From contig JAGXGB010000004.1 of NCBI GenBank assembly GCA_024636955.1, forward strand, positions 24,522 to 88,521: a stretch of DNA of 64,000 nt. The letters are read 5' to 3'. The stretch comes from Bacteroidales bacterium (GTDB lineage Bacteria; Bacteroidota; Bacteroidia; Bacteroidales; Lentimicrobiaceae). Positions 40,623 through 63,400 of this stretch are shown in pieces (the stretch's first letter is position 1; every line of letters starts with the position of its first letter). The translations under genes and the position numbers were made by a program. Below the pieces are notes generated by a model that searched no databases, was not told the DNA's origin, and saw nothing but the letters and a program-made list of their open reading frames with translations.

Positions 40623-42752
40623 TTATTTGCGCTTTCCTCTGCGTGAATCTCCACTTCGGGAGTCAGAACGACGAGAGTCGCTTTTGCCTGAATCGCTCCT
40701 CTTAGGAGCCCTGTTCCAGGGTGAATCGAATGAAGACTCGTCTCTCTGAATCTTCTTCTTCCTGTCTGGTCTGTCGGAAGAAGATTTTTCTGACCTGTCT
40801 GGTCTGTCGGAAGAAGACTTTGCTGACCTGTCTGGTCTGTCGAATGAACTCCTTTCTGACCTGTCTGACGATCTGTCTGATCTGTCAAAAGAGCGCTCAG
40901 TGCGTTCAGGTTTCTCTGAACCCTTAAAAGGCCAGGCTGGTTTATCTTTACCTGTTCTTTCAGATGGTTCCGATCTGTCAGATCTTGGAGCTCTTTCAGG
41001 TTTATCAAACCTGTCGTTCCTGCTTGTTCTTTCACCACGGGCAGGTGATCTTTTCTTGAATGAGGAACCACCTCCATCTCTTTCAGAAGCTACTTCAATT
41101 CTAACACCATCAGGATTACTGCTGGAATCATTGAATGCCTTAATTACTTTAGCTACTGCTTTTGAATCTATATCAACAAAAGAGTATGAATCCATAATGT
41201 CAATACGGCCAACCTTTATTTCCCTTGAGCGGGTAACCTCATTTATGAGGCCTATAATCTGCTGTGGTAATATCCTGTCCTTCCGGCCAACGCTAACAAA
41301 CAAGCGGGTAAGGTCGCGATCATCACCTGATCTTTCACCTCTGCTGCCTCTTGTTTCACGTCCACCTTCTCGTTTTGAATCACGTCCTCTATCTCGACTT
41401 TCAGAATCCCTCGACCTTCTTTCTTCCTCTATAACATTGAGGTCTTTTGCATCACGGTAATACTCCAGGAAGCGATTAAACTCAAGTGAAACGAACCGTT
41501 TGATCAAATCCTCTTTTGTCATCCAGTCTAGTTTACGATTAATAACAGGCAGGAATGATTCAATCTCTTCATCGAGTACAACATTCTCCATCCTGTCAGT
41601 GTAATGAAACAACTGTTTTTCGCAAACCTGCACACCGGTAGGCACCTTAGCCTGAGCGAACTCTCGTGCAATCATCTTTTCTATCTGCCTGATCTTGAAT
41701 TTCTCTTTCAGGTTGATAATTGAAATACAGATACCAAGTTTATCAGCACGCCCGGTACGTCCGCTACGGTGAATATAAACTTCTGAATCGTCAGGTAAAT
41801 TATAGTTGATAACATGTGTCAAATCATTCACATCAAGACCCCGTGCTGCCACGTCAGTAGCAACCAGCATTTGAAGTGATCTTTTGCGGAATCTACCCAT
41901 CACATAATCGCGTTGTGCCTGCGAAAGATCACCATGCAGTGAATCGGCACTATATCCATCACGAATTAGTGAATCAGCAATTTCTTGTGTTTCAATACGC
42001 GTACGGCAAAAAATGATAGCATAAATACTCGGGTTGAAGTCAGCTATTCTCTTGAGCGCCTGGTAACGGTCGCGTGCATGTACAAGGTAGTACATATGCT
42101 TAACGTTAGCAGTGCCGGTATTTTTTTTGCCAATAGACTTCACCACAGGTTTAGTCATGTATTTGGCCAGAATTCGCTCCACCTGTGCAGGCATTGTTGC
42201 CGAGAACAGGAGCGTATATTTATCTTTGGGAGTAGTTTCAAGAATAGTATCAACTTCTTCCTGAAATCCCATATCAAGCATTTCGTCAGCTTCATCAAGA
42301 ACCACCCACTTTACCATGCTGAAGTCAACACGTTTGCGGCGGATCATATCATTCAATCTACCGGGAGTGGCTACAATAACCTGAGGTCCTTCATTAAGTT
42401 GCCTGATCTGTGTTTCAATACTGGCACCACCATAAACGGCTGTAATTCTAATACCGGGGATGAAAGCAGCGAAGCTCTCAAGGTCTCTGGCTATCTGCAG
42501 ACAGAGTTCCCTTGTGGGACAAAGGATTAGTGCCTGAGTCTTGCGAAGTTCAGGATTGATATGATGTAAAACCGGAAGGCCAAAAGCTGCTGTTTTTCCG
42601 GTACCTGTCTGAGCCAGTCCAACTAAATCTACGGGATCAGAGATCAGGGTAGGAATTACTTCTGCCTGTACCGGCATCGGCTCCCTGAAGCCGAGTGCTT
42701 CAACACCTTGCAATAGCAAGTGGTTCAAGCCTAATTCATTAAATGAGGGCAT
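40623..42752 (-). CDS. DEAD-box RNA helicase with DbpA-like RNA-binding domain and repetitive Ser/Arg/Asp tail
   Basis: 709 aa. The helicase core shows AQTGTGKTAAFGLPVL, VLDEADEMLDMGF, SATMP and HRSGRTGRADKLG. A DbpA/CsdA-type RNA-binding domain follows at about residues 475-555 (LTRLFVSVGRKDRILPQQI). The last about 130 residues are a low-complexity tail with 11-residue repeats (DRPDRSAKSSS, DRPDRSEKSSS). It resembles DeaD/CsdA cold-shock helicases that remodel rRNA. The tail is likely disordered and RNA-binding. The ORF at 40571-41077 is a frame shadow of the tail. Leader length from the TACCTTTG box is about 14 nt. Confidence 0.94.
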   Translation of the reverse strand: MPSFNELGLNHLLLQGVEALGFREPMPVQAEVIPTLISDPVDLVGLAQTGTGKTAAFGLPVLHHINPELRKTQALILCPTRELCLQIARDLESFAAFIPGIRITAVYGGASIETQIRQLNEGPQVIVATPGRLNDMIRRKRVDFSMVKWVVLDEADEMLDMGFQEEVDTILETTPKDKYTLLFSATMPAQVERILAKYMTKPVVKSIGKKNTGTANVKHMYYLVHARDRYQALKRIADFNPSIYAIIFCRTRIETQEIADSLIRDGYSADSLHGDLSQAQRDYVMGRFRKRSLQMLVATDVAARGLDVNDLTHVINYNLPDDSEVYIHRSGRTGRADKLGICISIINLKEKFKIRQIEKMIAREFAQAKVPTGVQVCEKQLFHYTDRMENVVLDEEIESFLPVINRKLDWMTKEDLIKRFVSLEFNRFLEYYRDAKDLNVIEEERRSRDSESRDRGRDSKREGGRETRGSRGERSGDDRDLTRLFVSVGRKDRILPQQIIGLINEVTRSREIKVGRIDIMDSYSFVDIDSKAVAKVIKAFNDSSSNPDGVRIEVASERDGGGSSFKKRSPARGERTSRNDRFDKPERAPRSDRSEPSERTGKDKPAWPFKGSEKPERTERSFDRSDRSSDRSERSSFDRPDRSAKSSSDRPDRSEKSSSDRPDRKKKIQRDESSFDSPWNRAPKRSDSGKSDSRRSDSRSGDSRRGKRK

Positions 42753-42772: not shown

Positions 42773-42780
42773 CAAAGGTA
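42773..42780 (-). promoter_or_regulatory. -7 box of the DEAD-box helicase gene
   Basis: TACCTTTG on the minus strand, an exact TAnnTTTG match 21 bp before the ATG at 42752. Confidence 0.5.
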
Positions 42781-42826: not shown

Positions 42827-42858
42827 TTGCCGGATATGACTTGCTTTTGTTATATTTG
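42827..42858 (+). promoter_or_regulatory. Plus-strand promoter facing into the repeat region
   Basis: TTG (42827-42829), a 21-bp spacer, then TATATTTG (42851-42858) fit the Bacteroidota promoter pattern. Transcription would begin near 42865, exactly where the 11-bp repeats start, and no protein gene on that strand follows for 1.8 kb. It may drive a small RNA. Confidence 0.45.
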
Positions 42859-42864
42859 CATCAA

Positions 42865-42963
42865 AACTATGTCACAACTATGACATAACTACGTCATCTT
42901 TATTAAAAACATAGAGATGACATAGAGATGAGGTAGAGAAAAGGTAGAGATGACATAGAGATG
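42865..42963. repeat. Phased 11-bp tandem repeats
   Basis: Nine consecutive 11-bp windows: AACTATGTCAC, AACTATGACAT, AACTACGTCAT, one unrelated window (CTTTATTAAAA), then ACATAGAGATG twice, AGGTAGAGAAA, AGGTAGAGATG and ACATAGAGATG. Both families keep the same 11-bp register across the array. The period is about one helical turn, so a bound protein would contact one DNA face. Not a CRISPR array: the units are contiguous and have no spacers. Confidence 0.85.
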
Positions 42964-43000
42964 ATAACACTTACGGCCCAATATGGGTTAAGGCAAAAAT

Positions 43001-43097
43001 GTAAAGTCTATTTTACAAAATGCATGCATTTTTGTAAAATAGACTTTACACAATAAGAAGAAAATTGTAAAATAGGCTTTACACCAAATATAGAAGA
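43001..43097. repeat. Three 16-bp dyads spaced exactly 33 bp; first two form a long inverted repeat
   Basis: GTAAAGTCTATTTTAC (43001-43016), GTAAAATAGACTTTAC (43034-43049) and GTAAAATAGGCTTTAC (43067-43082) start 33 bp apart. The first is the exact reverse complement of the second, so together with flanking bases they make a 21-bp-arm inverted repeat around TGCATGCAT. The second and third are direct copies with partly conserved flanks, like a 33-bp tandem repeat. Each unit is itself a GTAAA-N6-TTTAC dyad, like a dimer-binding operator. The region lies between the 3' end of the permease gene and the helicase promoter. Confidence 0.85.
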
Positions 43098-43153: not shown

Positions 43154-44428
43154 CTAACCCTGCCAAAGTATACCAAACAATACATATGCTACTATAAGGG
43201 TTAGCACAATATTAAATGCCTGGGCAATTAGGAATGCATATGCCGGCCGACCATGGTCCATAGTAATCAGATCCTTGAACCTTGTTTCCAGACCTATACA
43301 TACAAATGCCAGGTTGAACCATAGCGACTGGTAGCTCTTTATTGTTTTCCCTGCTGCAACGGCTGTTTCCCCATCAATTATGAAAGAGAATATCAGTGAA
43401 GTAACAATAAAACCAAGTACAAATTTAGGGAAGCGATCCCAGATCATTTTAAGTGATGGCTTTTCAGCAACTTCACTACCTGTATTCCGGTACGACCAAT
43501 AGATGGAAATCAGAAACGCAGCAACCCCCAAAAGCACGTTTTGTGAGAATTTGATAATTGTACTGAATTTTAGAGCGATGTCACCTGCTATAGTACCTCC
43601 GGCAACAACAGCTCCGGTAGTGTCAATAGTTCCACCAAGCCATGCACCGGTTACCTCATCGGGCAAACCCATCCATTTAGCTAAAAGAGGCATAAATATC
43701 ATCATAGGGATCGCCACAATCAACACTAGTGAAATAACATAGCTTAGTTTCTTTGAATCTCCTTTAATAGCACCGGCTGTTGCAATGGCTGCTGATACAC
43801 CACAAATACTTACTGCACTAGCAAGCATCATGCTGAGTTCAGCATCTATCTTCATTTTCTTTGCTACCCAGAAGGCAAAGTACCATACAGCAACTACTAC
43901 TACAACAGCCTGGATAACACCATAGAAACCTGCTCTCATGATTTCGCTGAAGAGTATAGTTGCACCAAGCATCACGAGACCTATCTTAATATAGAATTCG
44001 CTCTGAATACCTTCTTTCAGCCATTTAGGGGTGCCAATAACGTTGCTAACGAAAAGGCCGATGAGTAATGAAAAGATTACAGTTTCAAGTCCCAGGTTTT
44101 TCATTGAACCACTGGTAGCAATGAACTGGGCTACCATCGACATAGCAAAAATTACCGGGAACGCTGGAAGAAGCTCTTTACCACGGCGTCCCATAAGCCA
44201 GGAACCTACTATGGCAAAAAAGAAAAAATACAGGAATGTCATCAATACTCTGAGTGAATTACCTGTGGTAAAGATTTCTGTACTGAGAACTGTCCAACCT
44301 GTCCAGCCTGCTTTTGGTCCGAATTTTGGCAACTCTGGAAAAAAAGAAGTAGCAACAATAGCCAGAATAAGGATAAGGCCAACTATTACTGATGCCCAGT
44401 CTTCATTGAATCTGTACTTTTTTATCAT
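43154..44428 (-). CDS. YeiH/UPF0324 family putative sulfate exporter-type permease
   Basis: 424 aa with about ten membrane helices. Family features include SNVIGTPKWLKEGIQSEFYIKIGLVMLGATILFSE (only the core IGLVMLGATILF is needed), the conserved loop SAVSICGVSAAIATAGAIKG, and GAWLGGTIDTTGAVVAGG. This is the Cons_hypoth698 (PF03601) family, often called putative sulfate exporter; transport substrate is not proven. It is a single gene, transcribed toward the repeat region, with a near-consensus GATATTTG box 20-30 bp upstream. Confidence 0.9.
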   Translation of the reverse strand: MIKKYRFNEDWASVIVGLILILAIVATSFFPELPKFGPKAGWTGWTVLSTEIFTTGNSLRVLMTFLYFFFFAIVGSWLMGRRGKELLPAFPVIFAMSMVAQFIATSGSMKNLGLETVIFSLLIGLFVSNVIGTPKWLKEGIQSEFYIKIGLVMLGATILFSEIMRAGFYGVIQAVVVVVAVWYFAFWVAKKMKIDAELSMMLASAVSICGVSAAIATAGAIKGDSKKLSYVISLVLIVAIPMMIFMPLLAKWMGLPDEVTGAWLGGTIDTTGAVVAGGTIAGDIALKFSTIIKFSQNVLLGVAAFLISIYWSYRNTGSEVAEKPSLKMIWDRFPKFVLGFIVTSLIFSFIIDGETAVAAGKTIKSYQSLWFNLAFVCIGLETRFKDLITMDHGRPAYAFLIAQAFNIVLTLIVAYVLFGILWQG

Positions 44429-60482: not shown

Positions 60483-63400
60483 CAATAAGTGGATAAGAAT
60501 TCCCCTTAAAATCTTACTTTGGTTAATTGTAGGGATTTTAGGCTTGGTGATTCTGGTGGTGATTGCCCTGCAATTGCCTCCTGTGCAGAACTATGCCGCA
60601 CAAAAAGCTGTTAATTTTCTTCAGAAAAAGATAAAAACTGAGGTTACCCTCGAATCAATAAGTATTGGCTTCCCCAAAACCATCAACATAAAAGGTCTGT
60701 ACGTAGAGGACCAGCAAGCTGATACATTACTGTACGCACGAGATCTTTATGCGGGGGTCAACATGTTTGGCCTGCTGAAAAATAAACTTGATGTAAGGTC
60801 GGTGCGTCTTGAAGGTGTTACCGGACGGGTGTATAGACAATATCCTGACACTACCTTTAATTACAGCTTCATTATTGATGCATTTGCTTCAGAAGAACAA
60901 AAACCACAAACTACCGATTCAAGTGCTGCTTTCATTATCAGATTTGATAAAATTGATTTCGAAGATTTGAGGCTTCAATACAAAGATACCCTTGCCGGAG
61001 TAAATGCAAAACTGTACGTTGGAAAGCTGGAGACTTCCTTCAAAGAGTTTGACATTGAAACTATGTCATATAAGCTGAAAGACCTCTTACTTGAAAACTC
61101 AGCCGTGAGTTATCTTCAAACTCCACCATTGGTGAAATCAGCCGACACGTCAACTTCGGTAATGCCCGATCTGGATTTCAATAAGATAGCACTGGTAAAC
61201 TTAAACGTGAACTACCGCGGGCCTGTTGCCGGGAACGCATTAGATGCCAAAATTGGAAACCTTGAAGTGGTTTCTGATACTATTGATATGGCTATGATGA
61301 AGTTTGCAATTAACAGCTTTGAGTTAAGTGAGTCGGACATCAAATTCTTCCAAACCAAACCTCAGCAATTTGATACAATCATAGCGAAGGTAATCCAGGA
61401 GCAGGGCATCGAGAAGGAGATTGTAACGCCCGAATGGGAGTTTACTTTAAAAAACCTCAATCTGAATAATAACTCCCTTGCATACAGAGACCATGATTCA
61501 GTGGCTAAGGCACAAGGAATAGATTTCGATAATATAGTGGTTACTGAATTCAATTTTGAATCATCTGATATGTATGTAACTCCCGGAAAGATAAACCTGA
61601 GTCTTGATCATTTCAGTTTTGCTGAAAAAAGCGGTTTTATTCTCAATGAGTTTGCCTCTAAAATATCGTATGATACCACTAACATTGAGCTGGCCGATCT
61701 GGTGATAGAAACTCCCAATTCGAGTATCGGCGATCACCTTGAAGTAAGTTTCACTTCTATTGCATCCATTGCTGATTCAATAGAAAAGCTGCAGATGAAC
61801 ATTAACCTTCAGGATACAAGGATATCATTTTCTGATGTCTTGTACTTTATGCCTGATTTGGCGAATAATCCGCAACTTAAGATCAATGGCAATGAGGTTA
61901 TAGATATCAGTGGAGGCATAAGGGGCTCACTTGAAAATCTCACAATCAGTAGTTTTGTTCTTGATAATAATAAGTCGACTAACCTGGCATTATCAGGATC
62001 AGTAAGAGATGCAATGCACCCTGATCGCATGTACGCATCCTTAAACAGTTTTGCAGTTAGATCAACCAGAAATGATATATTCTCCTATATAAACCGCAGC
62101 TTAGTTCCTGAAACGGTTTCAATACCTGACTATATAAACCTCACAGGTAATTTCACTGGCTATATCAAAAACTTTAACGCAGCTATTGACCTTAAATCAG
62201 CATACGGTAATATGGTGGCTGATGTAAAGATGGACCCATCACAAGGAAACCGTGAAACATCTTATCTGGCATCACTTGATGTTGACCGCATTGATTTGGG
62301 CAAATTGTTGATGCAGCCCGATACACTTGGGCCGGTGAGCTTAAGTGTTGATATAAAAGGTACAGGCACGGTACCCGATCGCATGAATGCGGAAATAAAG
62401 GCTATAGTGCACGAAGCATTCTATAATAAATACATCTATAAAGATCTCAATCTGGAAGGATTTCTCGTAAACAGGTCATTCCATGGCGAAGTATGGATGA
62501 AAGATGATAACCTTGATTTCAACTATACCGGATATGTTAATGCGCATCCTGATAGTCTTGCTTTCATCTTTGATTTGGTTCTAAACGGGGCTGACTTGAT
62601 GGCACTGAATCTGTCCCCAAATGTTTTCAAGGCAAGGGGATCTATCAGAGCCGACCTCGCCAAGAGATATGGTCCTAATCCATTGGGGACACTTAAATTG
62701 TATGATTTACAGTTGATCACAGAATCTCTTGATTGCCCATTAGATTCATTGGTTGTTGAATCAACCTACGATTTTGACTCTTCATATATTGAGATAAGGT
62801 CAAAAATACTGAATGCATCTTTTAAAGGTGACATAGTATTGCAACACTTGCCTGCAACGCTCAACAGGCATTTAAATCAGTATTTTGCATTCTCTGATAC
62901 TGATACAACCAAGAATGCTAAATCCGGAGCATCAAAAGGTGGTGTAGTCACATTAGTGGATAATCCCGGCCAGGATTCAACTCTTACTATGGAGAAAACA
63001 AGTCAGGATTCAACTCTTGCTATGGAGAACACAAGTCAGGATAACGTATCCGGAAATTCAGCAACCCTACAGGATACTGTTTCCGCAAGAACAGAAACAT
63101 GGCAGAAAAGGATTCTTGAAGTGGATGGAAGCGTTGTACCACAAAACTTTGGATACAGCATTACGGTTGAAGACCCTAACTTATTTTGTGAGAACTTGCT
63201 ACCGGGTTTGAAAAGTTTCACACCTTTAGCTATTACCGGTAATTACAATAGCAATGAAATGGTGCTTGACCTCAGGGCTGACATTCCTATGATAGATTAC
63301 AATGGCATTGTTATCGACAGCCTTTACATTACTCTTAATTCAAACCGCCAGGAGTTGGCATACGACTTTATTGTAGCTGAAATTTCCAGTCCCACGCTGG

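Follow-up and report, generated by a model that had tools for sequence, protein, structure and literature searches.

The window, by which we mean the whole 64,000-nucleotide stretch that was analysed, comes from a Bacteroidales bacterium (Lentimicrobiaceae) whose draft genome (G000) comprises 3.22 Mb in 83 contigs and is about 93% complete. Its 11-bp repeat array lies between genes for a DEAD-box RNA helicase and a YeiH-type membrane protein, in the following setting:

40623-42752, minus strand: DEAD-box RNA helicase with DbpA RNA-binding domain, a neighbour outside the element (Pfam)
42773-42780, minus strand: conserved promoter box of the DEAD-box gene, TACCTTTG, between array and start codon (congener comparison)
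42851-42858, plus strand: TATATTTG, a Bacteroidota -7-like box (TAnnTTTG) directly before the array and pointing through it (sequence)
42868-42973, plus strand: whole element, a subfamily A copy of 106 model positions (gapless alignment with five other copies)
42868-42904, minus strand: 5' arm with four inverted units, CTATGTCACAA CTATGACATAA CTACGTCATCT TTAT (sequence, alignment and pairing offsets)
42905-42908, no strand: A-rich loop, alignment consensus CTATCTAAAACATAG (alignment)
42909-42963, plus strand: 3' arm with five direct units, ACATAGAGATG ACATAGAGATG AGGTAGAGAAA AGGTAGAGATG ACATAGAGATG (sequence)
43154-44428, minus strand: YeiH-type membrane protein (PF03601), a neighbour outside the element (Pfam)

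We confirmed the array at 42865-42963, where lag-11 identity reaches 0.68 over 99 bp, against a mean of 0.25 and a next best 99-bp stretch of 0.47 elsewhere in the 64 kb window; the exact 11-bp register of the original prediction holds. Its non-coding status was borne out as well, since the unit contains TAG and TGA and leaves no frame open through the array, and the sequence is, as had been claimed, no microsatellite. The two families said to share one register, however, are a single unit in opposite orientations: the left unit AACTATGTCAC reads GTGACATAGTT on the opposite strand, its right-hand counterpart is ATGACATAGAG, and no clean unit fills the fourth 11-bp segment, CTTTATTAAAA, which consists of a degenerate CTAT-type unit plus the loop. 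Because the left units are the reverse complement of the right unit, 42868-42973 forms one inverted repeat, or hairpin, with RNA fold z-scores of -5.7 (plus strand) and -6.5 (minus strand) that 0 of 200 shuffles equalled. The placing of every unit on the same helix face is true only loosely, as 11-bp units drift by 17 degrees each at 10.5 bp per turn, or by about 150 degrees over nine.

A covariation test in the innermost pairing register gave no excess over shuffles, and pair counts hardly favoured one fixed register, because the units are almost identical and pairing is about equally good in several registers. An Rfam scan of the region returned only sub-threshold chance matches, mostly to miRNA hairpins, caused by neighbouring palindromes. 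Shortly past the array, an 18-bp operator-like palindrome (TGTAAARTCTATTTTACA) occurs three times at exact 33-bp spacing, at 43000, 43033 and 43066 (43000-43083), and has no match with fewer than four mismatches elsewhere in the roughly 650 kb of the genome scanned. The window also holds a 33-bp repeat at 62971-63042 (2.2 copies, 94% identity, non-coding by long-ORF masking) and, at 40761-40867 in the C-terminal tail of the DEAD-box helicase, a 33-bp coding repeat (RSDRPDRSEKSS-like).

The array had been tied to the DEAD-box gene, and its position 113-211 bp upstream of the helicase start codon would suit a cis-regulator of that gene, a reading to which the comparison with congeners leaves hardly any credence. 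The helicase promoter stands nearer the start codon: a box reading CAAAGGTA on the plus strand and TACCTTTG on the minus strand lies about 20-30 bp before the helicase start in congeners, occurs in almost all of their orthologous upstream regions, and does so without the window's array in all congeners examined. The array itself is confined to this lineage, falls outside the core promoter, recurs at unrelated genes and is absent in five congeners (G001, G005, G013, G014 and G016) despite their kept DEAD-YeiH gene order. The closest congener, G003 (82% DNA identity at the helicase gene start), carries in the corresponding intergenic region a different 11-bp array, with a unit of approximately ACCGTAAGTTA, and the same unit stands upstream of that congener's own DUF6266 gene. 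The empty sites in congeners are too diverged for defining the ends of the element.

Searching the window's own genome by pattern located the unit pair six times, at separate loci that include the window's. These six copies align gaplessly over 106 columns, with equal unit number and loop position and a similar 3' end, and in each close copy the 5' arm shows more degeneration than the 3' arm; model R1 matches the window copy at G000:C45:67389-67494 (E 7e-22). A covariance model built from the six copies recovered one intermediate copy and a subfamily B (unit GGTAGAGAAAA) of identical layout, and pattern search with a follow-up scan yielded a subfamily C (unit CCGTAGAGTAA), copy numbers being low at about 5-8 per subfamily. 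Exact or near matches to the TATATTTG-type box stand at the equivalent place in only some copies. Units 3 and 4 of the window's 3' arm (AGGTAGAGAAA and AGGTAGAGATG) resemble the subfamily B unit, which makes the window copy an A/B mosaic. Such mixing of A-type and B-type units inside single arrays was seen in the window at 42909-42963 and at G000:C58:4469-4523, and suggests unit exchange between subfamilies. Related arrays with other units occur in the congeners G003 and G014, and no exact 22-mer or 23-mer match was found in viral or GTDB r220 contigs.

When the neighbours of every copy were listed, subfamilies A, B and C each proved to have one copy 61-69 bp upstream of a DUF6266 gene and on the same strand, the partner of subfamily A being G000:C11:6014-6655, which encodes 213 aa. 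The partner protein has about 212 residues, the A protein shares 50% identity with the B protein and 48% with the C protein, and all match DUF6266 (PF19781) at 69.6, 82.4 and 72.7 bits against a curated cut-off of 23.4 (E 4e-23 to 4e-19), which is their sole significant Pfam match. Scatter of the units without a conserved locus had been named as an outcome that would speak against the original prediction; this outcome is seen in part, but the scatter is that of an organised element with a partner gene. DUF6266 genes number ten in the window's genome and are patchy in the genus (9 of 19 genomes). With some confidence, solo arrays could be assigned to the genome's own DUF6266 genes for A, B and C only; across the 669 kb scanned, the units of four further own DUF6266 genes gave no clear solo copy. 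Among 14 solo copies, nine lie between tandem, four between convergent and one between divergent genes (baseline 61/16/24), with no enrichment at gene starts, and these sites argue against a classical regulon and are compatible with a selfish origin like that of REPINs.

REPINs are presumed to be moved by RAYT transposases; as mobiliser of the present element a transposase of this type was rejected, PF01797 having 0 matches in the genome and 5 of 14 control genomes being positive. A selfish miniature element would here be a non-autonomous mobile hairpin repeat with DUF6266 as its mobiliser or maintenance factor, and the window copy an insertion without local function. The copies are multiple, gene-less, lineage-specific, constant in length and conserved at the 3' end, they ignore gene orientation and also sit between convergent genes, each subfamily retains one copy at its own gene, and the arms are inverted as in REPINs (PMC3116915). 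We nevertheless place this origin on the unlikely side, since no nuclease or transposase domain was detected in DUF6266, the genome has no RAYT-type Y1 transposase, and copy numbers are low; as to MITE criteria, the inverted arms are present and the flanks, read by eye, show no consistent target-site duplication. If the solo copies are mobile, they would belong to a repeat-protein system unrelated to REP/RAYT.

The pairing of array and gene extends well beyond the window's genome. For each of 65 DUF6266 genes drawn from genus and order, the 260 bp preceding the start codon were scored for the strongest period between 5 and 39 bp. Lag 11 was the top period in 38 of the 65 regions against 13 of 429 other genes of the sampled genomes (Fisher 3e-28, although related genes are not independent trials and p-values therefore overstate certainty), and lag-11 identity was at least 0.8 in 11 of the 65 and in none of the 429 controls. 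In downstream flanks, lag 11 came top in 7 of 64, none with an identity of at least 0.7. An out-of-sample test across the phylum, with the prediction fixed beforehand, gave 9 of 19 newly sampled DUF6266 genes against 1 of 30 genes in their neighbourhood. Many DUF6266 genes carry upstream a tandem, often hairpin-forming array whose period is one helical turn and whose units are clade-specific; as clades differ in their units, inheritance of one ancestral sequence fails to explain the common period. About a quarter of DUF6266 genes have no clear array at the thresholds used, and some of these calls may reflect short arrays or wrong start codons. Canonical DUF6266 genes mostly fail the array test, and in many cases they have a short version of about three units (e.g., AAAGCCGTATT AAGTCCGTGTC AAGTCCAAGCG) 30-60 bp ahead of the start. 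Two-unit matches with no more than four mismatches were present in 18 of 65 DUF6266 regions, whereas 651 controls and 81 neighbours had none.

Unit and protein vary together. Similarity of units tracks identity of proteins (Mantel r 0.47, 0 of 2000 permutations; 0.42 between different genomes), and the period label is clustered on the protein tree, with 16 changes against 31 when shuffled. The unit ACTTGATACGG belongs to one DUF6266 clade in four congeners and recurs in opposite orientation in another clade, from three other families; in the four congeners that have it at their DUF6266 genes it sits at several loci, and it is missing from five DUF6266-free congeners and from four genomes whose DUF6266 genes are all canonical, the reversed control giving zero. 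A five-member clade from four other families (L306, L307, L309, L312 and L315) shows an upstream period of 10 bp, with clear 10-bp arrays including GTCAAAACCx and AAACTGACGx, the other members labelled 10 being weak. Protein binding at about one unit per helical turn, as originally proposed, looks in retrospect like a good guess: the related arrays have 11-bp units in most clades and apparently 10-bp units in one, as would be expected if the constraint is one turn of the duplex.

Such repeats could in principle be passive, slippage yielding multiples of roughly a helical turn in the intergenic DNA of this lineage and the DUF6266 link being a hitch-hiking accident. Period counts rest on sampled genome stretches, and in a 400 kb sample of the window's genome (L151-L170) periods of 11, 22, 33, 44 and 66 bp account for 21 of 49 non-coding arrays, with many unrelated units; a few 11-bp arrays are also present in the DUF6266-free congeners G009 and G011. 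A passive origin would accommodate these counts, but it leaves unexplained the constant length, hairpin layout and near-identical units at six loci, the excess upstream yet not downstream of DUF6266, the repetition of the result in other classes and the unit-protein co-variation, and we judge it very improbable. Periods of 22, 33, 44 and 66 bp are together commoner in this sample than 11-bp non-coding repeats. A genome-wide link between the number of DUF6266 genes and that of 11-bp arrays is suggestive only, owing to small samples and to the 11-bp arrays in the two DUF6266-free congeners.

In the DUF6266 protein itself, residues 1-70 carry a net charge of +5 to +14 in 65 of 65 proteins. Structure models, made from one sequence and from four, were poor (pLDDT 39 and 45), and fold matches from these low-confidence models were excluded as evidence; the C-terminal half is perhaps FnIII-like, a weakly predicted resemblance. 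DUF6266 was found neither in phages nor in plasmids, with one query protein each, and a literature search returned no mention of it. IMG/VR holds only two canonical-type DUF6266 loci, which are probably not viral, because one adjoins a cas2-like ORF. By identities read from the sequence, the IMG/VR contigs L269 and L270 have canonical DUF6266 beside a small cassette of holin-like, lysozyme-like and lipoprotein-like genes, L269 with the additional cas2-like ORF. Elsewhere, operon-like clusters at L230:2076-5319 (G107) and L241:1330-4307 (G044) are led by an array-bearing DUF6266 gene, followed by a protein of 491-578 aa with a DUF6266-like N-terminus and one or two proteins of about 150 aa, and in L235/L236 (G098) canonical DUF6266 genes stand, again by reading of the sequence, in a row of three DUF6266-like genes.

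The ligand of such a protein might also be RNA, the array being transcribed as an 11-nt-periodic hairpin RNA that DUF6266 binds, either in the manner of a type III toxin-antitoxin system or as an RNA-binding regulator. Eleven base pairs make one turn of A-form RNA, many arrays fold as strong hairpins, promoter-like boxes stand directly before some arrays, the window's included, and tandem repeats lie directly upstream of a gene for about 210 aa, as in toxIN. This reading strikes us as improbable. Many other arrays fold less strongly, and where the likely promoter lies past the array, as in several DUF6266 genes, the array falls outside that transcript. The apparent 10-bp units of one clade fit B-DNA as well as A-RNA, and the solo copies have no gene.

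Alongside the arrays, their dispersal, their pairing with DUF6266 genes and the co-variation of unit and protein that we observed, we consider it probable that the window's feature is a solo, gene-less subfamily A copy of a dispersed hairpin of about nine units, and that DUF6266 proteins bind their own helically phased arrays. Cooperative binding of a DUF6266 protein to several turns of its cognate array would probably involve the very basic first 70 residues, with DNA rather than RNA as the presumed target. Bound to the array, it may control its own gene by autoregulation, and the solo copies, the window's included, would serve as extra cognate sites. A period of 11 bp in most clades and of 10 in one is what would be expected of sites stacked one per turn on duplex DNA. 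Points against this reading are the promoter-like box, which precedes the array in some DUF6266 genes and follows it in others, without a uniform operator position, the solo copies' lack of enrichment at gene starts, and the DUF6266 genes that have no clear array. Extending this proposal across the Bacteroidota, we suggest tentatively, and with slightly less than even confidence, that DUF6266 may be a phylum-wide family of sequence-specific nucleic-acid-binding proteins, each co-evolving with its own array of one unit per turn, that solo arrays may form genome-wide sets of cognate sites, and that together they could constitute an undescribed protein-repeat system that spreads, or organises the chromosome, in a way of its own. 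The upstream array provides a testable partner and a first functional handle on DUF6266, and the link accounts for a group of intergenic tandem repeats in these genomes that had lacked an explanation. As unit and protein co-vary, natural cognate and non-cognate pairs are ready for reading the recognition code.

Several known systems combine some of these features. The BrickBuilt MITE of Porphyromonas gingivalis, of the same order, is a dispersed intergenic element with reported promoter activity, made mostly of a short 23-nt tandem repeat without spacer, with short terminal inverted repeats, a leader and a tail (PMC4596501). Both are dispersed intergenic elements of Bacteroidales built of a short tandem repeat, whereas the present one has 11-nt units in two opposed arms instead of a 23-nt unit, and a DUF6266 partner where the BrickBuilt abstract names no partner protein (PMC4596501). 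In REPIN/RAYT systems, inverted repeats are dispersed through intergenic DNA, and each class goes with a single cognate protein gene that has a copy at its flank (PMC3116915). Here too, inverted-pair intergenic repeats are dispersed and one copy stands beside a partner gene, but the partner is DUF6266 in a genome without a Y1 (HUH) tyrosine transposase, and an 11-bp tandem array takes the place of the 20-40 bp palindrome of REPINs. The repeats of ToxI are about 36 nt long and fold as pseudoknots. ToxIN pairs a tandem repeat array specifically with the small protein gene directly downstream (PMC8860590). The present units differ in being 10-11 nt long and in occurring also as dispersed solo copies, and for the partner DUF6266 is the only Pfam match, with no match to a ToxN-family endoribonuclease.

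ParR binds direct repeats in front of its own operon, 11 bp long in R1 and 10 bp long in pB171, and the units differ between systems, with no cross-binding between families (PMC9426499). DUF6266 departs from this scheme in having no ribbon-helix-helix match in Pfam and no ParM or actin-like partner recognisable in the listed ORFs around the DUF6266 genes inspected, and its arrays are chromosomal, multi-copy and often inverted into a hairpin. It shares with ParR/parC the tandem 10-11 bp repeats upstream of the gene for the putative binding protein, periods of both 10 and 11 bp occurring among DUF6266 arrays as well. This parallel, together with the basic first third of DUF6266, favours cooperative binding with autoregulation.
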